Below are positions 1 to 14,395 of a stretch of 64,000 bases of DNA, one piece after another. Position 1 is the first letter of the stretch. Each line of letters starts with the position of its first letter. The translations under genes and the position numbers were made by a program. The DNA lies in assembly GCA_002841865.1 (NCBI GenBank), contig PHBD01000032.1:1-64000 (forward strand), in the 5' to 3' direction. This DNA is from Deltaproteobacteria bacterium HGW-Deltaproteobacteria-19 (GTDB lineage Bacteria > Desulfobacterota > Syntrophia > Syntrophales > PHBD01). The notes under the pieces are model-generated. The model saw nothing but the letters and a program-made list of their open reading frames with translations. It ran no database searches and was not told where the DNA came from.

Positions 1-100
1 GGTACAGAAGTGGTACCGGGATGCGAAGATCCTGGAGCTGTACGAGGGGACGAAGGAAGCGGAGATCATGACCATCGGTCGGTATCTCCAGACGAGATAA
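1..100 (+). CDS. Acyl-CoA dehydrogenase, C-terminal end (partial)
   Basis: The window opens inside a gene; the reading frame starting at base 2 gives 32 residues before a TAA at 98-100. The residues RDAKILELYEGTKEAEIM match the C-terminal signature of acyl-CoA dehydrogenases, in which the Glu of YEGT is the usual catalytic base and the segment helps bind FAD at the subunit interface. Only this tail is visible, so substrate class cannot be judged. The following flavoprotein gene starts 76 bases downstream on the same strand. Confidence 0.8.
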   Translation, partial: VQKWYRDAKILELYEGTKEAEIMTIGRYLQTR

Positions 101-138
101 GGATAACCGCAAAAGTGGTTGTTTTGTTTGAGGAATAG

Positions 139-164
139 CCCCTCTCCCCGTCCGGGGAGGGGGG
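139..164. other. GC-rich hairpin between two genes
   Basis: An 11-bp stem (139-149 with 154-164, one G-U pair) with a 4-base loop lies between the acyl-CoA dehydrogenase stop and the next start. It has no T-run, so it is a weak terminator candidate or an mRNA-processing hairpin rather than a clear intrinsic terminator. Confidence 0.35.
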
Positions 165-176
165 TCCGATTAAGGC

Positions 177-1229
177 ATGAGGAGTCAGGCTGTGAAGACG
201 AAGATAACGGAGCTTTTTGGAATTCAGTATCCCATTCTGCTGTCCGGCATGAGCTGGATCAGCACACCGAAAATGGTAGCGGCCGTTTCCAACGCCGGAG
301 GGCTTGGCATTCTGGCCACTGGAGCGCTGGGGGGGGAAGAAACCCGGAAGGCCATCCGGGAGATCCGGACGCTTACGGACAAACCCTTTGGTGCGAACGC
401 CTCCCTGCTGTTTCCGGGGGCGATGGAAAACGCCAAGATTCTTCTGGAGGAGAAGGTCCCGGTCATCAATTTCGCCCTCGGCAAAGGAGACTGGATCGTC
501 AAGCGTGCCCATGAATACGGCGGCAAGGTGGTCGCCACGGTGGTCAATGCGCGCCATGCCCTGCGAGCGCAGGATTATGGGTCCGACGGCGTCATCGCCA
601 CGGGGAACGAGGCGGCAGCCCATGGTGAGGAGGTCACGTCCCTGGTCCTGGTGCCGAGCCTGGCGGATGTTCTGAAGATTCCCGTCATCGCCGCCGGCGG
701 CTTTGCCGACGGAAGGGGACTGGCAGCCGCACTGGCCCTGGGGGCCGAAGGGATCGCCATGGGGACGCGGCTGATGAACACGAAGGAAAGCCCGCTCCAT
801 GCAAATTTCAAAAAGCTGTCCGTAGAGAAAGACGTCTATGACACGGTCTTCTCCAAGCGGATCGACGGCATCTATTGCCGCGTTATGGACACGGATGCGG
901 CGCGCCAGCAGGCAAAGAAGGGATTGGACTGGGTATCGGCGTTTTTCAGCTCCCAGGATATCGCCCGGCAGATCAAGGTGCCATTTTTCAAGCTGTTCCT
1001 TGGCGTTCTTGCTTCCGGATACGGCAATGCCAAGCAGCTGGCCTACATGGCCAACGCCTTCCGGTTCTTCAAGGCGGCGACGGAAGACGGCGACGTGGAG
1101 AAGGGAATTCTTCCCATCGGCCAGAACACGGGATTGATTCACGACGAGCCGACGGTGGCGGAACTCTTCGAGCGCATGGTCGCGGAAGCGAAGGCCGTGC
1201 AGGAGAAGATGGCTCGACAGGTGGCCTGA
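177..1229 (+). CDS. Nitronate monooxygenase / FabK-like FMN oxidoreductase
   Basis: 350 residues, a TIM-barrel FMN protein of the 2-nitropropane dioxygenase / enoyl-ACP reductase II (FabK) superfamily. The family N-terminal pattern is seen in YPILLSGMSW and SNAGGLGILATG (about residues 18-48). The glycine-rich FMN-phosphate segments are at GSDGVIATGNEAAAHG (135-150), which carries the conserved His, and VIAAGGFADGRG (170-181). Members oxidise nitronates or reduce enoyl thioesters; next to an acyl-CoA dehydrogenase an enoyl-thioester role is possible but unproven. The ATG at 177 is the first in frame; there is no strong Shine-Dalgarno. Confidence 0.8.
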   Translation: MRSQAVKTKITELFGIQYPILLSGMSWISTPKMVAAVSNAGGLGILATGALGGEETRKAIREIRTLTDKPFGANASLLFPGAMENAKILLEEKVPVINFALGKGDWIVKRAHEYGGKVVATVVNARHALRAQDYGSDGVIATGNEAAAHGEEVTSLVLVPSLADVLKIPVIAAGGFADGRGLAAALALGAEGIAMGTRLMNTKESPLHANFKKLSVEKDVYDTVFSKRIDGIYCRVMDTDAARQQAKKGLDWVSAFFSSQDIARQIKVPFFKLFLGVLASGYGNAKQLAYMANAFRFFKAATEDGDVEKGILPIGQNTGLIHDEPTVAELFERMVAEAKAVQEKMARQVA

Positions 1230-1252
1230 GACAGGCCCTGAGACAGGCAAAG

Positions 1253-1288
1253 CCAGGCCCCCCTCCCGGGTTCGAGAGGGGGGCCTGG
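1253..1288. terminator. Bidirectional hairpin between convergent genes
   Basis: A perfect 13-bp stem (1253-1265 with 1276-1288) with a 10-base loop sits between the convergent flavoprotein gene and rpe. T-runs on both sides are poor, so termination would rest mainly on stem strength. Position and symmetry fit a shared terminator. Confidence 0.65.
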
Positions 1289-1307
1289 TTGCATCCCGAG
1301 ATCATAT

Positions 1308-1961
1308 TCAGCCTGCGGCTTCTTTCAGAAGCCGGATCTTTTCTCCATAATCAGAACCGCCGAAAACGGCGGCCCCGGCCACGAAGACCCCGGCTCCGGC
1401 CGCGGAAACCTGCCCGATGTTCTCCGGTGTGATTCCGCCGTCCACCTCCAGAATGATCCGGGGAGCAATCCGGTCGATCATCTCCCTCGCCTTCTGGATC
1501 TTCGGAATCATGCTTTTGATGAACTTCTGCCCGCCGAATCCGGGGTTGACCGTCATAATCAGAAGCAGATCCACATCCGGGAGAATCTCTTCCACCAGGG
1601 CCAGAGGGGTCGCCGGATTGATGGAAACCCCGGGGCTGATCCCCTTCTCCCGGATCTGGGACAGGGTCCGGTGCAGGTGGCGGGAGGCCTCGGCATGGAT
1701 CGTCAGGAAGTCGCTGCCCGCTGCGGCAAACGCGCCGATGTAGCGTTCCGGCTCCTCGATCATCAGGTGGACATCGAAGGGAAGCTTCGTGCATTTCCTC
1801 AGGTGTCCGACCACGGCAGGCCCGATGGTGATGTTCGGCACGAAACGGCCGTCCATCACGTCGATGTGGATCCAGTCTGCTCCGGCCCGCTCCACGGCGG
1901 CGATTTCTTCTCCAAGCCTGCTGAAGTCCGCGGACAGGATTGAGGGGGCGATGCGTTTCAC
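1308..1961 (-). CDS. rpe: Ribulose-phosphate 3-epimerase
   Basis: 217 residues, the usual Rpe length. It interconverts D-ribulose 5-phosphate and D-xylulose 5-phosphate in the pentose phosphate pathway in the cytoplasm. Family motifs are complete: APSILSADF at the N-terminus, HIDVMDGRFVPN with a metal-binding His and catalytic Asp, DVHLMIEEPERYI, MTVNPGFGGQKFI (phosphate loop) and LEVDGGI with the second catalytic Asp. The start codon is the ATG directly preceding KRIAPSIL. A TTGACA/TATGGA promoter lies 30-58 bases upstream, divergent from waaA. Confidence 0.95.
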   Translation of the reverse strand: MKRIAPSILSADFSRLGEEIAAVERAGADWIHIDVMDGRFVPNITIGPAVVGHLRKCTKLPFDVHLMIEEPERYIGAFAAAGSDFLTIHAEASRHLHRTLSQIREKGISPGVSINPATPLALVEEILPDVDLLLIMTVNPGFGGQKFIKSMIPKIQKAREMIDRIAPRIILEVDGGITPENIGQVSAAGAGVFVAGAAVFGGSDYGEKIRLLKEAAG

Positions 1962-1990
1962 GGAATATCCTCCCGAGTTTGTCTGTCGGT

Positions 1991-2019
1991 TCCATACACA
2001 ATTGGCATCCCCCTGTCAA
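1991..2019 (-). promoter_or_regulatory. Sigma-70 promoter of rpe
   Basis: On the minus strand TTGACA (2014-2019) is followed after 17 bases by TATGGA (1991-1996), placing a start site about 25 bases before the rpe ATG. Confidence 0.6.
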
Positions 2020-2101
2020 TTCAGGGCATTCTTCCTTTGACCCAGCCGCGCCCCTGCGGATGGTCGGTCAGTCCGGAATGCATGGGCTGGGCTGATTGGC
2101 C

Positions 2102-2130
2102 TTGACAGGCACCTGGAAAAGAACCAAGAT
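2102..2130 (+). promoter_or_regulatory. Possible promoter of waaA
   Basis: TTGACA at 2102-2107 is perfect, but the hexamer 17 bases on, CAAGAT, matches the -10 consensus at only three positions. No better -10 was seen in the 220-base gap between rpe and waaA. Confidence 0.35.
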
Positions 2131-2185
2131 CCTCGCCGCATCCCCGGTCCCCGGGGGGCTGAATCCTTTTCGCAACGGGGAGTTC

Positions 2186-3484
2186 ATGTTTTTTTTATAC
2201 AACCTTCTGATGTTTGTCGCAGGCCTCTTTGCGATTCCCTACTACGCCATCAAGATGTGGACGACCGGGAAGTACAGGAAAAGCCTGACGCGGAAGTTCG
2301 GTTACACCGAACCCCGGTTTTTCGAAGAATTGGAAGGAAACCCCCGGATCTGGATCCATGCCGTTTCCGTCGGGGAGGTAACCGCCGCCGCTCCCATCGT
2401 GGCGTCCCTGCGGGAGCACTATCCCGGCGCCTGCCTGGTTTTCTCAACAAGCACGGAGACGGGTCAGGATATGGCCCGGCGTATGGTCAAAGAGGCATCG
2501 GCGTTTCTTTACTATCCCCTCGACATCCCGCGGGTCATCCGGAAGATGCTCGACGGAGTCCGCCCGGATGTTTACATCATGGTGGAAACGGAACTATGGC
2601 CGAATTTCCTGCGGATCTGCAGGGAACGGGGGGTGCGGACCCTGATGGTGAACGGCCGCCTTTCGCCGAGATCGTTCCGGGGGTATCGTCTGACGCGTTT
2701 CTTCTGGAAGCCCCTTCTGAACAACGTTGCGGATGTGGGAGTTATCTCCGCTGCGGATGCCCGACGGCTTGTGGAACTGGGGCTCCCAAGAGAGCGGGTG
2801 CATGTCCTGGGTAATGCAAAGTACGACGGGCTGGCCGCCAACGCCTCGCCGGTACATCACCAGGAGACGCTCAAGAAACTGAACTTCAGCGGATCGGAAG
2901 AGGTGCTGGTGGCGGGTAGCACCCACGAGGGAGAGGAATCGGTCGTCCTTTCGACCTATCGCCGCCTCCTGGAGATTCATCCGGATTTCAAGCTGGTCCT
3001 CGTTCCCCGACATGTCGAGCGCGCACAGGCGGTGCTTTCGCTGGTACGTGCGGCCGGCTTCGACGATGTGATCACCCTTTCGGAAATCCAGAAAGGTCGC
3101 TCACGGCAAACCGAACGGATTGTACTCGTGGATGTCATCGGGGAACTGTTCAAGCTTTACAGCGTGGCCACTGTCGTGTACTGCGGCGGCAGCCTTGTCC
3201 CGAAGGGAGGCCAGAATATCCTGGAGCCCGCTGCATGGGGCAAGGTCGTCTTTTACGGACCCTCCATGGATGATTTCCTGGAGGAAAGGTCGCTCCTGGA
3301 GGAATCGGGGGCCGGTGTGACTGTAAGAAATGGTGAGGAGTTATTCGAGGGAATCGTCCGACTCCTCGATCATCCCGAGGAGATGGCCCGGCGAGGCTCC
3401 CGTGGCCGGGATACGGTCATCGCCAACATGGGGGCGGCACAGCGATATGCCGCCATGGTCCGGATTCAGCTGGAGAAGAAATAA
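2186..3484 (+). CDS. waaA: 3-deoxy-D-manno-octulosonic acid (Kdo) transferase
   Basis: 432 residues, matching the family length of about 420-430. WaaA/KdtA transfers Kdo from CMP-Kdo to lipid A precursor at the inner face of the cytoplasmic membrane. An N-terminal membrane anchor (FFLYNLLMFVAGLFAIPYY) is followed by the GT-B N-domain with WIHAVSVGEVTAA (the conserved Glu base), STSTETGQDMA and MVETELWPNF. The C-domain has VAGSTHEGEE, LVPRHVERA and the donor-site segment GGQNILEPAAWGK. The ATG at 2186 was chosen because the anchor follows it directly and GGGGAG precedes it; an upstream in-frame extension lacks family features. Its presence implies an outer membrane with LPS. Confidence 0.95.
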   Translation: MFFLYNLLMFVAGLFAIPYYAIKMWTTGKYRKSLTRKFGYTEPRFFEELEGNPRIWIHAVSVGEVTAAAPIVASLREHYPGACLVFSTSTETGQDMARRMVKEASAFLYYPLDIPRVIRKMLDGVRPDVYIMVETELWPNFLRICRERGVRTLMVNGRLSPRSFRGYRLTRFFWKPLLNNVADVGVISAADARRLVELGLPRERVHVLGNAKYDGLAANASPVHHQETLKKLNFSGSEEVLVAGSTHEGEESVVLSTYRRLLEIHPDFKLVLVPRHVERAQAVLSLVRAAGFDDVITLSEIQKGRSRQTERIVLVDVIGELFKLYSVATVVYCGGSLVPKGGQNILEPAAWGKVVFYGPSMDDFLEERSLLEESGAGVTVRNGEELFEGIVRLLDHPEEMARRGSRGRDTVIANMGAAQRYAAMVRIQLEKK

Positions 3485-3542
3485 CCGCCCGCCATCCGCG
3501 CGACCCGGCTTTCCCCTGAGTCTGCGTGCGGCCTTCCCTTTT

Positions 3543-4442
3543 CTATTCTTCAACCTTCCGCAGGTATTCTTCCCATTTGGCATCCACGTTGGCCTGAAAC
3601 TGGCGCAACTGCTCGGCATCCATCTTCCGGAACCGCCCCTGTTTCTCAAGGTAGTTGACGACAGGCAAACGATTTCCCCGCTCTGCCTGGGTCTTGCTGC
3701 GACCGGTGAAACGGAACTTCCCGTTCTCGATCTCGAACAGCGGGAACAGCCCCGTTTCCACGGCCAGCCGGCCGATTTTCACGGTATCTTTGGGCGGATA
3801 CACCCAGCCTGGCGGGCAGGGGACGTGGATGTGGATGTACCGTGTTCCCCTTATTTTCTTGGCCTTGACGAACTTGTCATACAGGTCCAGGGGATAGGAA
3901 GGAGAGGCCGTGGCGATGTAGGCAATGTTGTGGGCCTCCATGATCTTCAGAAAGTCCTTCTTGGGCTGCTGCTTCGTGAGGATCGGCGTCGTCGTCGTCA
4001 GAGCCCCCATGGGTGTCGCGCTGGAGCGCTGGGTCCCTGTGTTCATGTATCCTTCATTGTCGTAACAGACGTAGATAAAATCCGTTCCGCGCTCGGCGGC
4101 TCCGCTCAGTGCCTGAATTCCCATGTCGAAAGTCGCGCCGTCCCCGGCGATGGCCACGACGGTGATATCCGCCTTGTTGAGAGCCCTGAGCCCCGCCACC
4201 AGGCCGGATGCCGACGCAGCCGTGCTGGCGAAGGAGTTGTTGAGGGCGGGCACACAGACTGGCGTACTCGGGTAAAGGCCCTGCAGAACGCACAGACAGC
4301 AGGCCGGAAGAGTGACGATCGTGTTTTCCCGGAGCGCCTTCAGGGCGTATCGGTAGAAAAGGGACAACCCGCAGCCCTGACAGGCCCGGCTTCCCGGGAG
4401 GATGTATTCCTTGCTGTTGATCTTGAAGAGATTTTCCGGCAT
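3543..4442 (-). CDS. 2-oxoacid:ferredoxin oxidoreductase, beta subunit (PorB/VorB type)
   Basis: 299 residues. The beta subunit binds thiamine diphosphate and a proximal [4Fe-4S] cluster. Cluster cysteines are seen in CQGCG (about residue 22) and PACC (about 47-49), with another in the segment VCYDNEGYMNTG. The TPP motif runs from GDGATFDMG to NEGYMNTGTQRS. It lies last in the minus-strand order gamma-delta-alpha-beta, only 4 bases after the alpha subunit. The fold does not separate pyruvate from branched-chain 2-oxoacid enzymes. The leucine-rich leader upstream of the operon favours a branched-chain (VOR-like) role, which is an inference. Confidence 0.88.
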   Translation of the reverse strand: MPENLFKINSKEYILPGSRACQGCGLSLFYRYALKALRENTIVTLPACCLCVLQGLYPSTPVCVPALNNSFASTAASASGLVAGLRALNKADITVVAIAGDGATFDMGIQALSGAAERGTDFIYVCYDNEGYMNTGTQRSSATPMGALTTTTPILTKQQPKKDFLKIMEAHNIAYIATASPSYPLDLYDKFVKAKKIRGTRYIHIHVPCPPGWVYPPKDTVKIGRLAVETGLFPLFEIENGKFRFTGRSKTQAERGNRLPVVNYLEKQGRFRKMDAEQLRQFQANVDAKWEEYLRKVEE

Positions 4443-4446
4443 CGTC

Positions 4447-5655
4447 TCACCCCGTGATGCAGTTGAGCCAGGTCGTTTTCTTTTCCCGTCGGCCCGCTTC
4501 CAGGTCGGTCCAACACTCTGCGGCTGCAGCCTCCAGTTCGCGGGACTTCACATCCCGTCCCCCCAGGCCGGCAATGTAGTTGTATATCGCCGGCCGGATT
4601 TCCGTTCCGAACAGGGCTCCCTTGATTTCGGTACACAACGCGCCTTCGTTCCCGTAGCTGATGCTCTTTTCGAAGACAACGGCAGCTTTCGCTTTGGACA
4701 ATGATTTCCTGACCGCTTCTTTCGGAAAGGGCCGGAAGGCCCGGATGCCCGTGACGCCGGCCCTGATTCCCCGGGCGCGAAGCGCATCGGCGGCGAGGGT
4801 GGCTTCGCTGGCGAGGGACCCCATGGCGACGAGGTAAAGTTCCGCGTCTTCCGTCCGATAATCCCAGACCAGGCCGCCATGGTCCCGACCGAAACGTTTT
4901 GCAAATGCGTCGCTCGCCTCGGTTATGGCCTCGAGGGCATCCTCCAGGGCGGCCTCCAGCTTGTACCGCATCTCCATGTATCCGTCCCGGAGGACCCCTT
5001 CGCTGTCGGCCCGGCGGTTCGGGAAGAGCACGGGATTGAGGCAGCGGGGGTCATCGGGGGTGAGGATTGTGTGGGGTTTGTACGGGGGCAGGTACTCCCG
5101 CACGGCTTCCTGCTCCGCCAGCTCCACGGGCATCATGGTGTGGGAAAGGACAAAGCCGTCGTAGCAGACCATGACCGGGACATAGACCGATTCGGCAATC
5201 CGGTAAGCCTGCAGGAGCGTGTCATGGATCTCCTGGTTGTTGCGGCAGTAGAGCTGAATCCATCCCGTGTCGCGTTGGGAAAGGGAATCCTGCTGGTCGT
5301 TGAAGATCGTCCAGGGAGCCCCGACGCCCCGGTTGACGCAGCACATGACGATCGGCAGGCGTGCCCCCGCAGCCCAGTGAAGCTGCTCGTGCATGTAAAG
5401 AAGGCCGTTGGCGCTGGTGGCGGTAAAGACCCTGGCACCCACGGTGGAGGCGGAGATGCAGACGGTCAGGGCGGTATGCTCCCCTTCAACCCGGACGTAT
5501 TCGGCCTTCAACTCTCCGCTTTCGATGTACTGGGACATCATCTCCGCCAGCTGCGACTGGGGGGTGATCGGGTAGGCAGCCACAACCTGGACGTCGCAGA
5601 GCATCACGGCGGCGGCGGCCGCCGAATTGCCGGTCATGATCCGCACTTTACTCAT
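4447..5655 (-). CDS. 2-oxoacid:ferredoxin oxidoreductase, alpha subunit (PorA/VorA type)
   Basis: 402 residues, typical for the separate alpha subunit of four-subunit pyruvate/2-oxoisovalerate:ferredoxin oxidoreductases. It contains the pyrimidine-binding domain motif AYPITPQSQLAE (about residues 28-39), VEGEHTALTV with the Glu expected to activate TPP, and FTATSANGLLYMHEQL. A C-terminal domain II includes VAMGSLASEA and GIRAFRPFP. The gene overlaps the upstream delta subunit by 8 bases, showing translational coupling. Confidence 0.9.
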   Translation of the reverse strand: MSKVRIMTGNSAAAAAVMLCDVQVVAAYPITPQSQLAEMMSQYIESGELKAEYVRVEGEHTALTVCISASTVGARVFTATSANGLLYMHEQLHWAAGARLPIVMCCVNRGVGAPWTIFNDQQDSLSQRDTGWIQLYCRNNQEIHDTLLQAYRIAESVYVPVMVCYDGFVLSHTMMPVELAEQEAVREYLPPYKPHTILTPDDPRCLNPVLFPNRRADSEGVLRDGYMEMRYKLEAALEDALEAITEASDAFAKRFGRDHGGLVWDYRTEDAELYLVAMGSLASEATLAADALRARGIRAGVTGIRAFRPFPKEAVRKSLSKAKAAVVFEKSISYGNEGALCTEIKGALFGTEIRPAIYNYIAGLGGRDVKSRELEAAAAECWTDLEAGRREKKTTWLNCITG

Positions 5656-5941
5656 CGGATTGATCCTCCCTCACCATCTGAATGGCTTTGGCCGGACACT
5701 CCTCGGCGCAGATGCCGCAGCCCTTGCAGTAGTCCAGGTCGATCTCGACGGGGATGGCGGCCTTGACAACGCCCTCGGGACAGTAAAGCCAGCAGAGGAA
5801 GCACGCGGATTTCTTTTTCACCGAAGGGATGCATCGTGTCTGATCGATGACCGGGCGAAGAGTGCGCCAGTCCCCGGTTCGGCCCGCTTCTCCGATGGAG
5901 GGCTTGCACATGGCCGAAATGTTTTCGTCTCGTTTTTCCAT
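5648..5941 (-). CDS. 2-oxoacid:ferredoxin oxidoreductase, delta subunit (ferredoxin-like)
   Basis: 97 residues, the small two-cluster subunit that passes electrons to soluble ferredoxin. The second cluster site is standard (CKGCGICAEECP). The first is unusual: the four cysteines are spaced C-x9-C-x2-C-x3-C (RCIPSVKKKSACFLCWLYCP) rather than C-x2-C-x2-C-x3-C, as if seven residues had been inserted after the first Cys. The WLYCPE ending is typical of delta subunits. The gene is 78 bases after the gamma subunit and overlaps the alpha subunit. Confidence 0.85.
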   Translation of the reverse strand: MEKRDENISAMCKPSIGEAGRTGDWRTLRPVIDQTRCIPSVKKKSACFLCWLYCPEGVVKAAIPVEIDLDYCKGCGICAEECPAKAIQMVREDQSDE

Positions 5942-6019
5942 AACCGCCTCAAATTCGTGTGGGGAGTCTCCTGACCGACTCCCGGACCGCGACTTTCCGG
6001 CGACGCGAAAACTGCCGCG

Positions 6020-6583
6020 TCAGCCGGTGACGACCGTTGTTTCCTGGTAGGCCTCTGTCACCGTGGCGAAATTCCGCCGGACCGCCTCCGGGGATAATTT
6101 ATCCCCCAGCGCCTTCTCCAGGTTTTCCAGGGACACCAGACCGGTGGCCTTGGCAAAGGCCCCCAGCATGGGGGTATTGACGACCGGCGCCCCCTCCCGG
6201 ATCAGGTGATTCTTCAGGGCGATGGATGCCCCGTCCACGAGGGCTGTCCGGATTCCCTCCGGATGGGGAAACTGGTCCGGGGGCTTTGCCGTGTTGATGA
6301 TGACCATGCCTCCCGGTTTCGAGCGTCCCCAGATGTCCGCCACCTGAAACAGCGTATCATCCAGAACGACCGTGATGTCCGCCTTCTCGAGCTGGGAGAA
6401 GGTGCGGATCGGTTCCTCGGCGATCCGGGTCGATGCCGTTACGGGAGCTCCCCGGCGCTCCGGACCAAAGGTGGGAGCCGAAGTGACGCCCTTGAAACCT
6501 CCCATATAGGCCGCTTCCGCCAGCATCTGTGCTGCGATGACGACGCCCTGGCCTCCTCTTCCGTGCCAGATGATCTCGTACAT
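6020..6583 (-). CDS. 2-oxoacid:ferredoxin oxidoreductase, gamma subunit
   Basis: 187 residues from the ATG at 6583, chosen because GGGGAG lies just upstream and because MYEIIWHGRGGQGVV is the canonical family N-terminus; longer starts would run through the Shine-Dalgarno. Motifs are HGRGGQGVVIAAQMLAEAA and a later FGPERRGAPV. In four-subunit enzymes this subunit binds CoA. It is the first structural gene of the operon. A terminator-like hairpin lies about 33 bases before its start codon, preceded by the leucine-rich leader ORF and a promoter. Confidence 0.9.
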   Translation of the reverse strand: MYEIIWHGRGGQGVVIAAQMLAEAAYMGGFKGVTSAPTFGPERRGAPVTASTRIAEEPIRTFSQLEKADITVVLDDTLFQVADIWGRSKPGGMVIINTAKPPDQFPHPEGIRTALVDGASIALKNHLIREGAPVVNTPMLGAFAKATGLVSLENLEKALGDKLSPEAVRRNFATVTEAYQETTVVTG

Positions 6584-6615
6584 GCATTCTCCCCGTTGGC
6601 TGAAATGTCCGTTAC

Positions 6616-6651
6616 AAACAAAAAGGCCATGGATGGTCACCCATGGCCTTT
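6616..6651 (-). terminator. Leader terminator (putative attenuator) before the 2-oxoacid oxidoreductase operon
   Basis: On the minus strand an 11-bp perfect stem (6641-6651 with 6622-6632, 8-base loop) is followed by TTTTT-G-TTT, an intrinsic terminator. It lies after the leucine-rich leader ORF and before the gamma-subunit start, with no complete protein gene for it to terminate. The stem core is GCCATGG, also present in the trp leader terminator of this window. Confidence 0.75.
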
Positions 6652-6674
6652 AGGATCGTTTCATTGTGCTTCGG

Positions 6675-6797
6675 TCAGCACTTCCTAAAAACGATGGGCG
6701 TCGGAAGGGACCCCAAAAGGAGCAGGGGAAGGCACAATAGGAGCAGCAGACCCCTCATCAAACCCCTTGCTTTGTCCAGCCCGAATGCCATCGTCAT
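6675..6797 (-). CDS. Leucine-rich leader peptide (putative attenuator ORF)
   Basis: 40 codons starting ATG ACG ATG GCA, with GAGG 8 bases upstream. Thirteen of 40 residues are Leu. The core is GLLLLLCLPLLLLG, encoded by five consecutive Leu codons (CTG CTG CTC CTA TTG), Cys, Leu, Pro and four more (CTG CTC CTT TTG). It begins about 20 bases after a consensus promoter and its stop is 24 bases before the terminator stem, the geometry of leu/ilv leader peptides. The alternative is a small hydrophobic membrane peptide, which the terminator placement makes less likely. Confidence 0.7.
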   Translation of the reverse strand: MTMAFGLDKARGLMRGLLLLLCLPLLLLGSLPTPIVFRKC

Positions 6798-6823
6798 TGG
6801 AAAACCTCGAAAAAAGTTCGTGA

Positions 6824-6852
6824 ACTGTAAAACAAGGGATCGGGGTTGTCAA
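6824..6852 (-). promoter_or_regulatory. Sigma-70 promoter of the leucine-rich leader and oxoacid oxidoreductase operon
   Basis: On the minus strand a perfect TTGACA (6847-6852) is followed after exactly 17 bases by TACAGT (6824-6829). The inferred start near 6817 leaves a 20-base 5' leader before the leader-peptide ATG. Upstream of it toward the sigma-factor gene (6853-7147) no other clear signal was seen. Confidence 0.75.
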
Positions 6853-7147
6853 CTATGAAAATTGCATGAAGCTGCATTTCTATTGGGGATGTGACAGGCA
6901 TTTTAAGGCATCCCCCGGGCCGTGTTTCCGGCAGGGCGCCATCAGGATTTTTCCCAGTCCTGGAGGGAATGAACATCATCCCCTCTGCCATTGTCATGCA
7001 TCCGGCAACATGGTATCAATGGTTCACCAATGGGATTCGCTTGTGGGAGCCGGGGCGGCAACTATCGGGCTCCGGTATAAAGAAAGCAGGAAGCCGCGTC
7101 CGTACTGCACAGGGGAGTAATTCAGTTTCCCGGACCGGGAGGGAAGG

Positions 7148-7702
7148 GTGGACCAACGGCAGGCGAAAGACATTGTCCAACGTGTCCTGGAGGGTGATAC
7201 CAATGCCTATGCCCTTTTGGTCGATGCTTACAAAAATCCCATACTCCAGTTGGCATACCGAATGACAGGCAGCCTTCAAGATGCCGATGACCTGGCCCAG
7301 GAGGCCTTTATACGGGCCTTCCGGAACCTTCATCGCTATGATCGTGAGCGCTCGTTTTTCACATGGCTGTATACGGTTGCCATCAACGGAATCCGGAACC
7401 ACTTGAAAAAGAAGCAACGGGAGGAAGCGGGTTTCATCGAGTCGGATCGTCAGGAAGAAACAGCCGATGATGCTCCGGGAATGGAAGATCGTCTGGATGA
7501 AGCAAGAGAAGCAGAACGGTTGGAACTGACGCTGCGACGCCTCCCTGCGGACCAGCGGGAGGCCCTGATTCTCCGATTCTACCAGGGCCTGTCCCTGGAG
7601 GAGACATCGGAAATCCTCGGCATTTCCCTCAGTGCCGCCAAGATGCGGATCTATCGCGGACTGGAGAGGCTCAGGCAGCTCCTTTCCCGTCGCAAGCCAT
7701 AG
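7148..7702 (+). CDS. ECF-type RNA polymerase sigma factor
   Basis: 184 residues beginning at a GTG preceded by GGGAGGGAAGG. Region 2 covers about residues 15-90 (ADDLAQEAFIRAFRNL, then FFTWLYTVAINGIRNHL for -10 recognition). An acidic linker (about 95-125) leads to region 4 with LPADQREALILRFYQGLSLE and a helix-turn-helix (EETSEILGISLSAAKMRIYRG). No anti-sigma factor gene adjoins: the next gene is a CoA-transferase 125 bases on. Regulation by a partner protein is therefore unknown. Confidence 0.92.
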   Translation: MDQRQAKDIVQRVLEGDTNAYALLVDAYKNPILQLAYRMTGSLQDADDLAQEAFIRAFRNLHRYDRERSFFTWLYTVAINGIRNHLKKKQREEAGFIESDRQEETADDAPGMEDRLDEAREAERLELTLRRLPADQREALILRFYQGLSLEETSEILGISLSAAKMRIYRGLERLRQLLSRRKP

Positions 7703-7827
7703 GATGAATCGGTCGGATTCCCTTTCCCGCCATTTCCCCTGCCGTTGTTGCCATGAGACCGACCCCACTGTTTCTGTCGGTCAGACTCGGACAATCTGCC
7801 GTAGAAAAAGAAACGAGGAGAAAGAGA

Positions 7828-9003
7828 ATGCCTTTGCCTCTGGAAGGAACTCGGGTGCTGGACCTCTCGCAGGTGCTCCCGGGGGGGCTGTGCACCCAGA
7901 TTCTGGCGGACCTGGGGGCCGATGTGATCAAGATCGAGAATCCAAAGGGCGGCGACGGTTTTCGCAAATCACCGCCCCAGATGGGGAATACGGGAAGTTT
8001 CTTTCTTGTGATCAACCGCAACAAGCGAAGCATGACCCTCAACATGCACGAGGAAGAGGGGCGGGCGATCCTGCGGCGCATGATCCCGGAGGCCGACGTG
8101 TTCGTGGAGAACTTCCGGCCGGGAACGATGGGCCGCTGGGGATTGGATTATGAAGCAGTCCGGGAGATCAATCCCAGCCTCGTGTATTGCTCCCTGAGTG
8201 GTTTCGGCCAGGATGGCCCTTACAGCCAGAAACCCGCTCACGATCTCAACATCCTGGCGATTTCCGGAATCCTCGATCTCCTAGGGGAAAGAGGGCGGCG
8301 GCCCATCGTGCCGGCGGTCCAGATTGCCGGTGCGGGCGGTGCGATCCTGGCCGCCCTGGGCATCCTTGCCGCACTCCTCCGGCGTTCGTTGTGCGGATCC
8401 GGCCAGTACCTTGATGTATCACTGCTGGACGGCCTTTCCCCGTATCTGGGCCTCATCATGTCCGAGTTTGCGGTCCGGGGATCCGCGCCGGGAAGAGGGG
8501 AGGCCAGGGTGGGTGGCGGCTATGCCTGCTACAACGTCTACGAAACGAAAGACGGCCGCTGCATCGCCCTGGGCTGCCTGGAGGAGAAGTTCTGGGAGTC
8601 CTTCTGCCGGGCGATCCGCCGCGACGATCTGGCCGGCGATCTGCTGGCGCCGCTGGATCGGCAGGCGGAGATCATCGCGGAACTCCGTACTGTTTTCCTG
8701 CAGCGGACCCGTGGGGAATGGGTGGATCTTCTGGACCGCTTCGATGTCTGCTTCTCCACGGTGAACTCCCTGGACGAGGTTCTGGACGACCCCCAGGTGC
8801 ACCACCGGGGACTCTGGTTCCGGGCTCAGCAACCTGGCAATGGTGAAATCCTCCAGCAGGCTTTTCCCATCAAGTTTTCCGGAGAGCAGCCGGGCTGGAG
8901 GACGCCGCCGCCGGCGTTGGGGGAGCATACGGATGACCTGCTGGAAAGTATGCTGATTGATGCCCCCGCAAGGACCAGCCTGAGGGATCGCGGGATCATT
9001 TGA
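7828..9003 (+). CDS. CaiB/BaiF family CoA-transferase (class III)
   Basis: 391 residues from the ATG at 7828, preceded by GAGGAG. Class III CoA-transferases and the related alpha-methylacyl-CoA racemases move CoA between carboxylic acids, or epimerise them, via a catalytic Asp. The N-terminus LEGTRVLDLSQVLPGG, the segment LGADVIKIENP, NRNKRSMTLNM and VENFRPGTMGRWGL are standard, and GFGQDGPYSQKPAHDLN includes the expected catalytic Asp. The neighbour downstream is a short-chain fatty acid transporter, consistent with activating an imported acid, but the substrate is not readable. Confidence 0.9.
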   Translation: MPLPLEGTRVLDLSQVLPGGLCTQILADLGADVIKIENPKGGDGFRKSPPQMGNTGSFFLVINRNKRSMTLNMHEEEGRAILRRMIPEADVFVENFRPGTMGRWGLDYEAVREINPSLVYCSLSGFGQDGPYSQKPAHDLNILAISGILDLLGERGRRPIVPAVQIAGAGGAILAALGILAALLRRSLCGSGQYLDVSLLDGLSPYLGLIMSEFAVRGSAPGRGEARVGGGYACYNVYETKDGRCIALGCLEEKFWESFCRAIRRDDLAGDLLAPLDRQAEIIAELRTVFLQRTRGEWVDLLDRFDVCFSTVNSLDEVLDDPQVHHRGLWFRAQQPGNGEILQQAFPIKFSGEQPGWRTPPPALGEHTDDLLESMLIDAPARTSLRDRGII

Positions 9004-9055
9004 TCGTGAACCTGCATGCCGATCGGACTCCGGAGGTGCATGCCGGCCTTTATCT

Positions 9056-9084
9056 TTGACAGATATCGGCATCTCTGATACATT
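9056..9084 (+). promoter_or_regulatory. Sigma-70 promoter upstream of the fatty acid transporter
   Basis: TTGACA (9056-9061), 17-base spacer, TACATT (9079-9084). It lies just after the CoA-transferase stop and drives a leader with a short ORF and terminator before atoE. Confidence 0.7.
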
Positions 9085-9127
9085 TCTTCGGTATCACCAT
9101 CATAAATTCATCTTGGAGGAAGTAACG

Positions 9128-9160
9128 ATGGTGTTAACAGGGGCGAACTCCAACTTCTGA
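9128..9160 (+). CDS. 10-residue leader ORF overlapping a terminator
   Basis: ATG at 9128 follows GGAGGA by 7 bases, an unusually strong ribosome site for so short a frame. It encodes MVLTGANSNF and stops at TGA 9158-9160. The last four sense codons form the 5' arm of the following terminator and the stop is in its loop, so a ribosome completing the peptide would prevent the hairpin. Function is inferred from layout only. Confidence 0.55.
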   Translation: MVLTGANSNF

Positions 9161-9182
9161 AGCGAAGTTGGAGTTTTTTTTT
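9146..9182 (+). terminator. Intrinsic terminator in the leader of the fatty acid transporter gene
   Basis: A perfect 12-bp stem (9146-9157 with 9164-9175), loop TGAAGC, followed by a run of T to 9182. It lies between a promoter (9056-9084) and atoE, so it can act as an attenuator for atoE as well as a terminator for the CoA-transferase transcript. Confidence 0.85.
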
Positions 9183-9247
9183 GGGACCCGGCCTGTTTGG
9201 GGGGGCTGTGGTGCTCACGTTCTGTTCTTTCAATAAGGAGGTGTTCT

Positions 9248-10603
9248 ATGATTCGAAGATTGGCAGGTTTCTTCACTTATTTCATGAGGCATTTCCTTCC
9301 GGATGCCTACCTGTTCGCCATTCTCCTGACCTTCCTGACCGCCATCCTGGCCCTGCTTTTTGCGGGGGCGGACTTCATGAAAGTCATTACCACCTGGGGA
9401 AAGGGCGTGTACGGAATCCTCGCCTTCACCATGCAGATGATCCTGGTCCTGGTAACGGGATACTGCCTGGCCTTGACGCCGCCCTTGAAGAAAGTCCTGG
9501 ACTGGGTGGCATCCCTGGCGACGACGCCGGTGAGAGGTGCCATGATCACCGCCTTCGTGGGAAGCTTCGGCGGATTGATCAACTGGGGATTCGGTCTCAT
9601 CATGGGCGGTTTCCTGGCCCTGGAGATCGCCCGCCGGCAGCGGAAGTCCGACTTCCCGCTCCTGATCGCCGGTGCCTACAGCGGCCTGTGCATCTGGCAC
9701 ATGGGATTTTCCGGTTCCATCCCCCTGCTCCTGGCCACGGCGAAGCATCCCCAGAATCTCGTCGAGAAGGCGACGGGACTGGTAACCCCCATATCGGATA
9801 CGATCCTGGCTCCCTGGAACCTGATCCCGGCGCTCGTCCTTCTGTTCACGATCCCCATCCTTTTCTACTTCATGCATCCCAAAGAGGAAGAGACCCAGAC
9901 GATCTCCGAGGGTAGGGTGAAGGAGCTGCTGGGAGAAACCGTCCATGTGGATAAACCGGCCAGTCCGACCCTGGCGGAGCGGGTGGACCACAGCTACATC
10001 ATCAATTTCGTCTTTGCGGCGATGGGGCTGATCTACCTTTACAGCCATTTCTCCACAAAGGGACTGGACCTGAACCTGGACATCGTCATTTTCACGTTCT
10101 TCATCCTTGGCGTGATCCTTCACGGAAAGCCCATCAATTACGTCCAGGCCATGAACCAGGCTATCCGCTCCTGCGGCGGCATCGCCCTGCAATTCCCGCT
10201 CTACGGGGGGATCATGGGCATCATGATCGGCACCGGTTTGGCCAAGATCATAGCCGGTTGGTTCGTCGCTTTCTCGACGAAGGAAACCTTCTACATGTTC
10301 CAGTTCTGGGGGGCCGGCATCATTAACGTGTTCGTGCCTTCAGGCGGCGGCCAGTGGGCCGTGCAGGGACCGATCACGGTCGAGGCGGCGAAGATGATGA
10401 ACATCGACATGGTCAAGTCGGCCATGATGGTGGCCTGGGGAGACCAGTGGACCAATGCGATCCAGCCGTTCTGGGCGCTGCCGCTCCTCGGACTGGCCGG
10501 CCTGTCAGCCAAGGACATCATGGGTTACACAACCATGGTCCTCCTGTGGATCGGTCTTGTCCTGTCCCTCTTTGCCCTCATGATCGGGTTCGGGGTCTTT
10601 TAA
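9248..10603 (+). CDS. atoE: Short-chain fatty acid transporter, AtoE family
   Basis: 451 residues, a multi-spanning inner-membrane protein of the SCFA transporter family that imports acids such as acetoacetate or butyrate. About 11-12 hydrophobic segments are visible. Family-like loops include GGLINWGFGLIMGGFLALEI, WHMGFSGSIPLLLATAKH and FVPSGGGQWAVQGPI. The ATG at 9248 has AAGGAGG 8 bases upstream; an upstream in-frame extension would lack a site. Its expression appears subject to a leader terminator. Confidence 0.9.
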   Translation: MIRRLAGFFTYFMRHFLPDAYLFAILLTFLTAILALLFAGADFMKVITTWGKGVYGILAFTMQMILVLVTGYCLALTPPLKKVLDWVASLATTPVRGAMITAFVGSFGGLINWGFGLIMGGFLALEIARRQRKSDFPLLIAGAYSGLCIWHMGFSGSIPLLLATAKHPQNLVEKATGLVTPISDTILAPWNLIPALVLLFTIPILFYFMHPKEEETQTISEGRVKELLGETVHVDKPASPTLAERVDHSYIINFVFAAMGLIYLYSHFSTKGLDLNLDIVIFTFFILGVILHGKPINYVQAMNQAIRSCGGIALQFPLYGGIMGIMIGTGLAKIIAGWFVAFSTKETFYMFQFWGAGIINVFVPSGGGQWAVQGPITVEAAKMMNIDMVKSAMMVAWGDQWTNAIQPFWALPLLGLAGLSAKDIMGYTTMVLLWIGLVLSLFALMIGFGVF

Positions 10604-10630
10604 CCAAGACAACATGCTCCGGAACATCCG

Positions 10631-10663
10631 GGGCCGCGCGGCATTGCCGTGCGGCCCTTTTTT
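10631..10663 (+). terminator. Intrinsic terminator of atoE
   Basis: An 11-bp GC-rich stem (10631-10641 with 10647-10657, one G-U), 5-base loop, then TTTTTT, 27 bases after the atoE stop. Confidence 0.9.
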
Positions 10664-10806
10664 GTGGACCGTTCACGATCGGACCGACGCCGATGCCCGG
10701 CATGAATCTTCTCCCACGCATCTTTGCGAAAATCGCGGATTGCACTGCCGCCGGGTAGGAGCACAATCAGTCCCGGATGGAAAATATGCATAGGGAGGTG
10801 ATGAAC

Positions 10807-10944
10807 ATGAAGCGGACAAAAGACAGAGCGGCATGCGAGGAGCCGCGCCTTGTCTGTGCCCGGGAACTGGTGCCGGTCAGGGACAGGGAGCATGAGAGGG
10901 ACCTTACCATAGCTGATGTGCTTGGCAGATTCATGCTGGGTTAG
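10807..10944 (+). CDS. Small hypothetical protein, 45 residues
   Basis: ATG at 10807 has a strong Shine-Dalgarno (GGGAGGTG, 8 bases upstream). The product is short, charged and Arg/Glu-rich, ending LTIADVLGRFMLG, with no signal peptide or recognised domain. It sits alone between the atoE terminator and a convergent zinc-ribbon gene. No promoter was recognised. Codon content and the ribosome site argue for expression, but length makes this uncertain. Confidence 0.45.
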   Translation: MKRTKDRAACEEPRLVCARELVPVRDREHERDLTIADVLGRFMLG

Positions 10945-11014
10945 TCGGGGATCCCGTGAAGAACGAGACCGGATCGTCGGGTGGCACATCCGGATCCGAT
11001 TCGATGAACTCTTC

Positions 11015-12298
11015 TTACAGGAACCCGCCAAAGGACAGTGCGCGCCGGTCCACTGTCAGCCCCATGGTGGCATGAACCAGTTCGTTCTGCCTGAGGACAA
11101 AGGGGTGGTAGACCAGCCGGGATTCCCCGGGGTGGATCCGCACGTCCGGCAGGCCGGCCAGGAACATCCGTTTGTTGGCCGCGATGCTGGCCATCGTGAT
11201 CGGGATGGTCTCGAAGGCCTCGCAGAGCGGCAGCGTGACCGGGTGGGCCGGGACCTTCGGCAGGTTTCCCATGGCCGTTTCGTCCGGCTGGAAGACGGTC
11301 ATTTGCCGGGCCCAGCGGATGAAGAGGGCGGGATTCACTTTAAAGGCGGGAGACCAGAAATGGACCGGTGCCGCCTCCAGGGCGGGGGTCGCTACCCTGG
11401 GGAGATTGCCCAGGCGGATCAGGTCGGCAATGGAATCCATGGGAACGCCTTCAAAGCGGGCCGACAGGCGCCAGAAGGGAAGGTAGATGAACGCTTCGGA
11501 GGGGCTCTTCAGGTAATGGAACGGGACCGGGCGAAATTCTTCTTCGTCGCAGCTCCAGGCGGAACTGCAGTTTCGGCAGGTCATGACGAGGGCGTCTCTT
11601 TCCCCCTCCATGTCCCAGCCGCAATGGGGGCAGAGGGTCGAGACGAACCGGACCTGCCAGGGGGCAGCATTGGGTAAGGTGAGCAGAGTATTCCGGGCTT
11701 CCTTCCCGCAGTCGGGAAGGGGTTTCCGGAGGATGGCGTCATGAAGGAAGTTTCCTTCCAGGTAGACTGGGGCATAAATGATGCTGACCGTTTCGCCGAT
11801 GTAGGACTGCTCGGTCAGGTGGGTCGGCCGGCCGTCGGTGTCGAAGCGGGACGCCGCCTCCCGGGGGAGGCGGCCCGTGGCCAGAAACCTGCCTTCCGTC
11901 TTGGCGCTCACGAAACGGAGCTTCATTGCCTGGGGTCGGAGGCCCAGCGAGGTCGGTGGCCCGGCCGTGTCGAGGGCGAGGATATTTGTATCGACGAAGC
12001 GATTCTGAAACTCGAGGTCGGCCATCCGGTAGGCCAGCCCTTTGAGCCGCCAATAGGGAATGAAAAGAATTCCCCTGTCCGGGAGAGGAGGAGGAATGTA
12101 ATACCGGAAAGGTCCTGCCGAGGCCAAATAGAGCTTCGTCCGGCAGTACCCGCAAAGAAAAAGGCGCTCCGTCTCGTCCAGGATGACGGGGGCTCCGCAC
12201 TGCGGGCACTGCTGCTCGATCTGCCAGGTCCTCTGGACGTTGTAAGGGCTTGAAATCATTAGGTGCAAAAAATTGGAAAAAGACTGTTTCAGGGGCAT
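11015..12298 (-). CDS. Hypothetical protein with two zinc ribbons
   Basis: About 427 residues from the first ATG (12298); a TTG at 12322 is an alternative and the Shine-Dalgarno is weak for both. Two zinc-ribbon motifs are clear: CPQCG...CGYC near the N-terminus (about residues 30-50) and CPHCG...CRNC near the middle. Repeated aromatic segments (ILFIPYWRLKGL and FIYLPFWRLSARF, each downstream of a ribbon) suggest the protein is an internal duplication of a ribbon-plus-beta domain. No enzyme motif was recognised and no function is proposed. Confidence 0.7.
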   Translation of the reverse strand: MPLKQSFSNFLHLMISSPYNVQRTWQIEQQCPQCGAPVILDETERLFLCGYCRTKLYLASAGPFRYYIPPPLPDRGILFIPYWRLKGLAYRMADLEFQNRFVDTNILALDTAGPPTSLGLRPQAMKLRFVSAKTEGRFLATGRLPREAASRFDTDGRPTHLTEQSYIGETVSIIYAPVYLEGNFLHDAILRKPLPDCGKEARNTLLTLPNAAPWQVRFVSTLCPHCGWDMEGERDALVMTCRNCSSAWSCDEEEFRPVPFHYLKSPSEAFIYLPFWRLSARFEGVPMDSIADLIRLGNLPRVATPALEAAPVHFWSPAFKVNPALFIRWARQMTVFQPDETAMGNLPKVPAHPVTLPLCEAFETIPITMASIAANKRMFLAGLPDVRIHPGESRLVYHPFVLRQNELVHATMGLTVDRRALSFGGFL

Positions 12299-12418
12299 GA
12301 AACGCACCCCAGGCGCTCCCAAAAGACACGTTTTGCAACCTACCCGAAGCCGGGAAAGAATGTAAGGAAAAAATCAGGGGGGCAGGCCCCGGCTGCCCCC
12401 CACCCCCGCAGGCTCCTC

Positions 12419-12769
12419 ATGCGTATGTTGCAAACGGTCCGAACTGCAGGAAGGACGGTGAGCCGCAAGTTCGAGGCGCTGTTCATCACGCTTGCCCCGG
12501 AAGAGGAGCTCTCGAAGCGGCGCATCCTTAAAATTTGCCTGAACATCATCGAATGAGGCGAAGGAGTCTACGGCCCGGCGCCGGCGTCCCGCCATTGCTT
12601 CGCCTGGGAACCCGACGAGTTGACGGAGATGAAATGCGCGCTCCTCACTTCCATCATCGCCCGCCCGAAAGACGGCTGGAAGCAGGACCCGCTCTCGAAC
12701 CTCCATCTCGGCTGGCGTGAGTTTCTGAAACGGATTGTCCGGAAGATGCCTTCGAAGGAGATCCCCTGA
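12419..12769 (+). pseudogene. Open frame interrupted by one TGA, probable gene remnant
   Basis: One frame reads from ATG 12419 through 45 codons to TGA at 12554-12556, then continues open for 70 codons to TGA at 12767-12769. Both parts look protein-like: the first has KFEALFITLAPEEELSKR, the second CFAWEPDELTEMKCALL, ARPKDGWKQDPLSNL and WREFLKRIVRKMPSKE. No family was recognised. There is no good ribosome site. The simplest reading is a degraded gene with a nonsense codon. Selenocysteine readthrough is possible but unsupported, as no convincing SECIS or Cys-like context was seen. The stretch 12299-12418 holds only a GC-rich hairpin. Confidence 0.4.
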
Positions 12770-12802
12770 CGGTCTGGCCGCCCGCGTCTGCCACCCGCGC
12801 CG

Positions 12803-14395
12803 TCAGCGGGCGGGGCGGAGCGACCGGATGAACTCCGCCTGGTCCCGGGGGATGTGGCTGCCGCGGTAGACGATCGCTCCGCCAGCATCGATGCCCACGA
12901 CGTGAGGCAGACCCGAGATCCCGTAGAGTTGTTCCGTCACTTTCCCGTCCCGGTCGAGAAGGATCTCGTAGGTCATCCCCATGCTTCTCTTCGACCGCTC
13001 GATGACCTCTTCGAACTGTTTGTAGTTCACGGCCAGGACGACCACGTCGTCGTTTTTCGCAGACTCGTGCAGCCGGATTACGTCCGGCACCTCCTTCATG
13101 CAGGTGACGCACCACGTCGCGAAGAACACGAGGACCACCCCTTTCCTGCCCCGGTAGCTGCTCAGTGTGAGCCGTGAGCCCGTCAGGGTTGAAAGCGTGA
13201 AGTCCGGCGCCGGCTTTCCGGCCAATCCTTTTCGGACGCCCGTCCGTTCCGAGGGCGCGGGGGGCTCTGCGGCCCCGGGTGCCGGCGGCGCTATCGCCTG
13301 ATGCTGCCGCGGAGGCGCGGCGGGGGACGCCGCTGTCGGGGCGGATTCCGGGCCAGCCGGCCGGGCGGCGGTCATCGGTCCGGTCGGAGAGGCCGCATCC
13401 CCACGCGGCGGTGTTTCCGTCTTCGCCGGGAGACCTGAGGCAGGAACGCTCCTTGCGGCTCCCTCCTGCCGAGCCCTCTTTTCCGGCGCCTCGCTCTGCG
13501 CAACGGCATCTCTTCGCTCCGACACCTGCGGTAGAGCCGTCCCGGCCTTTTCGACGGGAGCAGCCTCCGGAATGACGGCAGGCGAGGCCGGTCCGGCCGG
13601 CTCGGGAACCGCCACCGCCCCGGATCCGGCAAGCAGGCCCGTCAGGCTCGGGAAGTCCGTGTGCTGGCCGACGAAAACGAAGAGGAGCGTCGATGCCAGG
13701 ATGATCAGGAAGGCAAAGCCCTTTTGAATGGCGACCATCCAGGCGCCGGCCCGGGGCAGCATGACGAGGAAGCCCGTGAACATCCCCGCGACAAGGATCA
13801 GCGCCCCCTGCCCGAGGCCGAACAGGAACAGGAGAGCCCCTCCCTTCACGATCTGCAGCGCGTACTCGAGTCCCTGGGCCTTCTGCAGGGTCAGGGCGAT
13901 CGTTCCGAGGGCCACCGCCAGGATCGGTCCGGTGCAAGGGCCGACGATCAGGCCGCTCACCCCGCCCAGCATCAGCGCCCCCGGAATCCCCTTGCGGTCG
14001 GCCGACTTCGCCTGGAGCCCGGCGAGGAAGCGGGGAGTCGGAAAATAGAAGACATCCAGGAGAAACAGACCCATCAGCAGGAAATACAGGGCAATCCCGT
14101 AGAGGATCCAGCCGTTTCCCATGATGGAGCCGAAGGTGCCGCCCACGGCCGCCACGATTGCCCCCATGACGGCGTACACGATCGCCATGCCGATCACAAT
14201 AGAGAGGCTGAGCAGAAACACCCGCCAGCGGCTGGCACCCGCCTGGTTGCCGATGTAGCCGATCGTCAGCGGGAGAACCGGATAGGTGCAGGGTGTCAGC
14301 GAGGCGAGGACCCCGCCCGCGAACACGAAGAAGAAGACGGTGATGGAGCCCTGGCGAAAGGCCTGCTCCATGAGATGTTGAATCTGCTCGATCAT
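12803..14395 (-). CDS. CcdA/DsbD-type membrane thiol reductase fused to a TlpA-like thioredoxin
   Basis: 530 residues in three parts. Residues about 15-260 are a multi-spanning CcdA/DsbD-like domain with the paired redox cysteines in LTPCTYPVLPL (about 34-44) and GPCTGPILAV. A roughly 130-residue Pro/Ala-rich linker follows (about 265-395). The C-terminal 135 residues are a TlpA/ResA thioredoxin fold with FFATWCVTCMKEV. Such proteins carry electrons from cytoplasmic thioredoxin across the membrane to periplasmic disulfides, for example in cytochrome c maturation. The single-chain fusion would deliver them directly to its own periplasmic thioredoxin. The next minus-strand gene on its upstream side encodes another exported thioredoxin-fold protein. 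Confidence 0.88.
   Translation of the reverse strand: MIEQIQHLMEQAFRQGSITVFFFVFAGGVLASLTPCTYPVLPLTIGYIGNQAGASRWRVFLLSLSIVIGMAIVYAVMGAIVAAVGGTFGSIMGNGWILYGIALYFLLMGLFLLDVFYFPTPRFLAGLQAKSADRKGIPGALMLGGVSGLIVGPCTGPILAVALGTIALTLQKAQGLEYALQIVKGGALLFLFGLGQGALILVAGMFTGFLVMLPRAGAWMVAIQKGFAFLIILASTLLFVFVGQHTDFPSLTGLLAGSGAVAVPEPAGPASPAVIPEAAPVEKAGTALPQVSERRDAVAQSEAPEKRARQEGAARSVPASGLPAKTETPPRGDAASPTGPMTAARPAGPESAPTAASPAAPPRQHQAIAPPAPGAAEPPAPSERTGVRKGLAGKPAPDFTLSTLTGSRLTLSSYRGRKGVVLVFFATWCVTCMKEVPDVIRLHESAKNDDVVVLAVNYKQFEEVIERSKRSMGMTYEILLDRDGKVTEQLYGISGLPHVVGIDAGGAIVYRGSHIPRDQAEFIRSLRPAR

Follow-up and report, generated by a model that had tools for sequence, protein, structure and literature searches.

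In the enterobacterial leuL and ilvL attenuators, a short open reading frame (ORF) of regulatory codons precedes mutually exclusive antiterminator and terminator structures, with its stop codon over region 2 of the leader RNA, and the genes controlled belong to the acetolactate and isopropylmalate pathways. The Staphylococcus aureus ilv-leu operon also has a leucine-rich attenuator, and its expression goes up on leucine depletion (PMC5794164). Rumen anaerobes were described decades ago as making leucine by the reductive carboxylation of isovalerate; dedicated, regulated genes for this reaction are hardly known.

We analysed a leader, and the operon that follows it, on the minus strand of a 64,000-nucleotide stretch of Syntrophales DNA (the window). 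The leader shares all three features with leuL and ilvL but stands before genes for a ferredoxin-linked 2-oxoacid oxidoreductase. With the S. aureus attenuator (PMC5794164) it has in common leucine codons followed by terminator and antiterminator, although the architecture is different and the S. aureus element controls a standard ilv-leu operon. A leader found before leuA in Syntrophales and other Desulfobacterota has the same leucine-core peptide, the same RNA (CGCCCGTCGTTTTTAGG / CCTAAAGGCCATGGG) and the same terminator; it differs in controlling leuA, in a peptide that usually ends RPSFLG.P at the stop codon whereas the oxidoreductase leader ends PSPVVFRK, and in its small hairpin, whose shape is not clearly the same. 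The enzyme itself resembles the pyruvate synthase PorCDAB and VorCDAB in having four subunits and in the families to which these belong (TIGR02175, TIGR02179), but its alpha, beta and gamma subunits fall below equivalog cut-offs, and conserved differences lie close to where the active site is expected. No prior report of this attenuator or operon was found in the open-access literature searched (subscription journals were outside its scope), an Rfam search with the leader RNA returned no similar family, whether T-box riboswitch or any other described family, and Rfam, plasmid and literature searches revealed no related element or report.

The explanation that best accounts for the whole, which we consider likely, is that a leucyl-tRNA attenuator controls a leucine-supplying enzyme; the regulatory response, the substrate and the direction of the reaction are inferred. 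The original prediction had called such an oxidoreductase an unusual target for an attenuator of this type, and this held, in that the mechanism is of a known kind while the controlled gene and the implied route are unusual. With a leucine attenuator common to leuA and a ferredoxin-linked oxidoreductase, a candidate gene set can be named and its substrate and direction predicted; the finding offers a way in which syntrophic bacteria without leuA may get leucine, and suggests an overlooked route to leucine from short branched acids. Leader RNAs can thus hint at a substrate where the sequence of the enzyme family alone does not tell.

The leader region and its alternative structures

Read along the minus strand from 6852 to 6620, the region consists of a promoter, a 40-codon ORF with 13 leucine codons, an antiterminator and a terminator, after which come the gamma, delta, alpha and beta genes. 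The sigma-70-type promoter (6824–6852) has TTGACA at 6852–6847, a 17-nt spacer and TACAGT at 6829–6824, matching the consensus at 10/12 positions; in a scan of positions 1–14000 it was the top promoter-like site on the minus strand, tied by one site on the plus strand. In a congener whose gamma subunit is 95% identical (L007), the leader is nearly intact and the boxes are kept as TTGACA and TAAAGT while the DNA upstream of the −35 box has diverged, and TTGACA-like boxes also lie 5' of many other orthologous leaders. A GAGG ribosome-binding site (6805–6808) precedes the leader peptide ORF (6675–6797; ATG at 6797, stop codon at 6677–6675), which encodes MTMAFGLDKARGLMRGLLLLLCLPLLLLGSLPTPIVFRKC. 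This ORF is alone among the 329 window ORFs of 25–60 amino acids in having a leucine fraction of at least 0.325, and its density of 10 leucines per 14 residues exceeds the best value, 7/14, obtained in 1000 dinucleotide shuffles of a 300-nt region. The control codons, assigned by a codon tally over 40 leaders, form the run CTG CTG CTC CTA TTG TGC CTT CCC CTG CTC CTT TTG at 6714–6749.

Four further elements complete the leader on the same strand. Region 1 (6788–6802), the stretch around the ribosome-binding site and start codon, is able to pair with region 2 in the minimum free energy fold of the free leader. A small hairpin, TTGGGG-TCCC-TTCCGA (6701–6716), sits between the leucine codons and region 2. 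Region 2 (6683–6699, GCCCATCGTTTTTAGGA) is the 5' strand of the antiterminator, and region 3 (6639–6655, TCCTAAAGGCCATGGGT) is its 3' strand and includes the 5' arm of the terminator. The intrinsic terminator, AAAGGCCATGGGT..ATCCATGGCCTTT with a T-run, occupies 6620–6651, its hairpin spanning 6651–6622 with 13 pairs in our scan. The promoter, GAGG site, 40-codon ORF with 13 leucines, terminator with T-run and gamma start, all of which had been predicted from sequence alone, held at these minus-strand positions. The predicted antiterminator, TTTTTAGGA with TCCTAAA, held only in part: the pairing is longer, 6699–6683 being joined to 6655–6639 by 16 pairs interrupted by a single C.C mismatch, and it takes over the terminator's 5' arm in full.

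Folding the window leader with and without a ribosome on the leucine codons, a check that had been proposed with the original prediction, gave the two alternative outcomes. A ribosome mask on the leucine codons, with the 3' arm of the terminator not yet made, led to the long antiterminator, and a mask at the stop codon led to the terminator only. Equilibrium folds of the complete RNA favoured the terminator every time, even with a stalled ribosome, and the choice must therefore be kinetic, as in known attenuators.

Conservation of the leader across Syntrophales

Orthologous leaders were sought upstream of gamma genes with at least 50% identity. Most loci with enough sequence have a leucine-rich short ORF followed by a terminator, AAGGCCATGGG..CCATGGCCTTTTT, and 40 distinct orthologous leaders from across the order share a common anatomy (alignment A1). 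At the five core positions leucine is found in 36, 38, 37, 40 and 38 of the 40 leaders, spelled by as many as six synonymous codons. The two positions that separate core leucine codons are variable, and neither valine nor isoleucine is enriched in the core. Sequence comparison thus shows that selection acts on the amino acid while the codons exchange synonymously, and the prediction of conserved leucine runs with synonymous changes in orthologous leaders was borne out.

The end of the ORF behaves differently. There one RNA, CGCCCGTCGTTTTTAGGA, with a conserved TTTTTAG, is read in two frames, so that some leaders (the window leader among them) end PSPVVFRK and others ARRF before the stop codon. 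Selection at the ORF end is therefore on the RNA and not on the peptide, which corrects the earlier reading. These observations bear on the alternative that the ORF encodes a small peptide, membrane-bound or secreted, that has a function of its own, the hairpin being merely its terminator. The peptide is possibly hydrophobic enough for a membrane segment, but the reading of one conserved RNA in two frames (VFRK or RRF at the end), the pairing of the antiterminator with the terminator arm and the free variation of the non-leucine residues all but exclude this alternative.

The attenuator reading rests on pairings that can be followed across the alignment. The antiterminator, 16–17 bp long and in competition with the terminator, joins region 2 (GCCCGTCGTTTTTAGGA) to region 3, and 88.5% of its cells are paired. 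Compensatory changes occur at 95:131, 97:129 and 98:128, and compensations include GC to AU and exchanges between AU and UA. A slide of one column sharply lowers the pairing of the combined structure of small hairpin and antiterminator. The terminator is paired in 95.6% of cells, and compensations are present there as well. Mean energies were −20.7 kcal/mol for the antiterminator, −19.9 kcal/mol for the terminator and −8.3 kcal/mol with region 2 shuffled. RNAalifold on its own recovered the terminator and just the AGGA/TCCT pairs, a partial result that is expected because the structures are mutually exclusive.

Two other pairings are less certain. The small hairpin covaries strongly in relatives, with both sides changed in 5/6 pairs, and is weak in the window leader (−2.9 kcal/mol); that it is a pause hairpin is possible and no more than a guess. 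Duplexes of region 1 with region 2 averaged −16.4 kcal/mol for cognate pairs, as against −15.1 kcal/mol for non-cognate pairs (p=0.03) and −10.3 kcal/mol for shuffled ones (p=4e-9). The complementarity is thus far above shuffled with only a weak cognate preference, and the two regions may form a protector pairing in the absence of translation. In all 40 leaders the stop codon is positioned within −4 to +12 nt of the region 2 end; by geometry alone, a terminating ribosome would cover region 2 and one stalled on the leucine codons would not.

Not every orthologue has kept the device. Three lack a leader (L025, L034 and L035), and in four others (L021, L031, L077 and L090) the terminator is kept while the leucine ORF has decayed or been deleted; these last may have lost leucine control. 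Separately, approximately 100–250 extra bases with a repeat-like look lie between the terminator and the gamma start codon at L013, L021, L031, L055 and L071.

The shared leuA leader and the proposed control

A search with a covariance model (R1) built on the oxidoreductase leaders covered 149 genomes from the order, of which 144 gave matches at E<=0.01; many of the lowest matches are weak. A second strong class of matches, at 50–94 bits, lies directly upstream of leuA, the gene for 2-isopropylmalate synthase. The peptides of these leaders are of the kind ..LLGLALLCL..RPSFLGLP (then stop), and their RNA, GCCCGTCGTTTTTAGG / CCTAAAGGCCATGGG, is the same as in the oxidoreductase leaders. When the two sets were aligned jointly, the pair 96:130, which follows AGG, was A-U in the oxidoreductase set and U-A in nine leaders of leuA, so that a compensatory change separates the two. 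That the leader is also found before leuA places the oxidoreductase leader in a leucine regulon. Leaders of this kind precede leuA in other families of the phylum as well, and no R1 match was found at distant relatives of the oxidoreductase (alpha 55–61% identical, L093–L115); the simplest history, which is inferred, is an early gain of a leuA-type leader by the oxidoreductase within this order.

Other R1 hits in the window's own genome were considered as a second leucine leader and rejected, being an aromatic leader before a DAHP synthase gene and an isolated terminator. The former (L188 1501–1644; contig C50:69151–69294) consists of an aromatic leader peptide, MAPKLNLTYWFGFYYFGPQVCLVLGRR, and a terminator directly before the DAHP synthase gene. 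Many relatives have similar leaders, rich in Phe, Tyr and Trp, before DAHP synthase (L218, L219, L221, L231, L233, L234, L262 and L263), and in one genome (L218 1129–1657) the aromatic leader of DAHP synthase and the leucine leader of the oxidoreductase diverge from each other, back to back. Leader peptides with Trp runs (FWWWQ) occur in relatives before a TrpB-like gene (L227 1501–1648, minus strand; L230 near 1501).

Several lines of comparative evidence make it very likely that the leader is a ribosome-mediated transcription attenuator that reads leucine, as had been predicted by likeness to leu/ilv leaders: the leucine codons are kept synonymously, the pairings covary, the stop geometry holds in 40/40 leaders and the same device precedes leuA. 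The regulatory response itself is inferred. With ample charged tRNA-Leu, the ribosome would get to the leader stop codon and cover region 2 (6699–6683), whereupon region 3 would fold with the 3' arm of the terminator and transcription would end at about 6620. Under leucine shortage, the ribosome would stall on the leucine run (6749–6714) and leave region 2 free to pair with nascent region 3 before the terminator forms, and polymerase would enter the four subunit genes. Without translation, the leader start region might tie up region 2, and termination would then be restored. Scarcity of leucine would thus induce the enzyme, which would operate alongside leuA or in its place.

The oxidoreductase operon and its inferred substrate

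The operon, all on the minus strand, comprises genes for a gamma subunit of the PorC/VorC family (6020–6583; ATG at 6583; TIGR02175, above cut-off), a ferredoxin-type delta subunit of the PorD/VorD family (5648–5941; TIGR02179, above cut-off), an alpha subunit of the PorA/VorA family (4447–5655; below every equivalog cut-off) and a beta subunit (3543–4442) whose best match is the VOR-type model PRK11864 (374 bits, cut-off 405). Family membership shows these to be the four subunits of a 2-oxoacid:ferredoxin oxidoreductase. Against the NCBIfam equivalogs for the pyruvate synthase PorCDAB, alpha scored 440 (cut-off 550), beta 351 (405) and gamma 156 (270), and against those for the 2-oxoisovalerate oxidoreductase VorCDAB alpha scored 388 (646) and beta 374 (405), all below; gamma, too, falls short of every pyruvate or VOR equivalog cut-off. 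The top score of alpha, 440 bits, is to the archaeal pyruvate synthase model PorA_Arch, and the nearest solved chains to alpha and beta are those of pyruvate:ferredoxin oxidoreductase (9bt4) and oxalate oxidoreductase. The leader-bearing clade has the signatures NRGVGAPW[ST]IFNDQQD in alpha and DNE[GA]YMNTGTQRS in beta, where pyruvate synthases have NRAVSAPINIWNDHQD and DNEAYMNTGIQRSS. These conserved differences, close to where the active site is expected, hint at a possible non-pyruvate substrate and are suggestive only, there being no structural model of the complex. Relatives have the same four genes, often ending against a convergent waaA, the usual downstream neighbour; a search of relatives for extra operon genes found none, and the operon contains neither an activation gene nor one for an aminotransferase.

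One alternative is that the attenuator is real and the enzyme is an anabolic synthase of pyruvate, or of 2-oxoacids broadly, leucine shortage standing in for the need for amino acids derived from pyruvate. In its favour are the nearest solved chains and the PorA_Arch score just given, and the fact that leucine synthesis via leuA consumes two pyruvates and an acetyl-CoA. Against it, the genome encodes a separate four-subunit enzyme (contig C26) whose PorB is above the pyruvate synthase cut-off, so that the leader-controlled operon is probably not needed for pyruvate; the alpha and beta signatures differ from those of pyruvate synthases; and leucine would be an odd sole sensor of pyruvate demand. 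We consider this alternative unlikely.

Genome content bears on the leucine-supplying role. The window's own genome and its congener, both approximately 100% complete, contain ilvC and lack leuA; both have only a citramalate synthase, which in the former is the sole relative and scores 733 bits (cut-off 450). Among 106 genomes of at least 90% completeness, with G038 scored as operon-bearing from leaders at contig ends, the operon is present in 19/23 without leuA versus 38/83 with it (Fisher p=0.002). When the large family f14 is left out, the comparison becomes 19/23 versus 32/48 (p=0.26), and as the association is then not significant we take the pattern as consistent with the reading and not as proof. 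The idea that leuA and the operon strictly exclude each other was tested and rejected, since many genomes carry both and the operon is therefore no strict replacement; four nearly complete genomes have neither.

A second alternative, which remains possible, is that the enzyme makes 2-oxoisovalerate, a precursor of valine and leucine, from isobutyryl-CoA, or takes several branched acids. Known VOR enzymes accept several branched oxoacids, and the best match of beta is a VOR-type model. Against this, the control codons are leucine only, with no valine or isoleucine enrichment in the core, and ilvC would provide valine by the usual route whereas leuA is missing. A third, that the enzyme oxidises leucine-derived 2-oxoisocaproate in catabolism and the leader is not a starvation inducer, recalls the catabolic ferredoxin-linked VOR enzymes of peptide-fermenting archaea. 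It is very unlikely: the logic of stalling and antitermination would induce at leucine scarcity, the wrong sign for catabolism, and the same device precedes the biosynthetic leuA.

We return to a leucine-supplying enzyme, a role that is likely and is inferred without expression or enzyme data. The substrate points to leucine because the control codons are leucine only, the leader is common with leuA, and leuA is missing. For a 2-oxoacid:ferredoxin oxidoreductase, the sole direct step to the oxoacid of leucine is the carboxylation of isovaleryl-CoA. The reaction would be reduced ferredoxin, CO2 and isovaleryl-CoA to 2-oxoisocaproate, followed by transamination to leucine; as a dedicated leucine route this is inferred with no enzyme data, and we would not favour it over its negation. 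A bolder reading is that the operon encodes a novel type of enzyme dedicated to leucine formation, a ferredoxin-driven isovaleryl-CoA carboxylase (2-oxoisocaproate synthase), which in Syntrophales without leuA stands in for 2-isopropylmalate synthase and took over the leucine attenuator of leuA; for this too the case is evenly poised. The original prediction of a branched-chain enzyme run reductively is thus supported indirectly and not proven, by the leuA-type leader, a genus without leuA, a separate pyruvate synthase and signatures in the active-site region unlike those of pyruvate synthase. Where it left leucine or valine as products, the evidence favours leucine, because the conserved control codons are for leucine only.

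A divergent CoA-transferase gene (7753–9003) and a short-chain fatty acid transporter gene (9197–10603) in the window were considered as isovalerate feeders and dropped as evidence because they are absent from relatives outside the genus in the stretches examined. Just before the transporter gene, on the plus strand at 9056–9182, lie TTGACA-17-TACATT, GGAGG, a 10-codon ORF (MVLTGANSNF) and a strong terminator with a T run, the stop codon of the ORF falling inside the terminator; this element may be another premature terminator. Elsewhere in the window, at 22082–22780 on the minus strand, a second POR_N-domain protein of the fused gamma-alpha type is encoded (L245).
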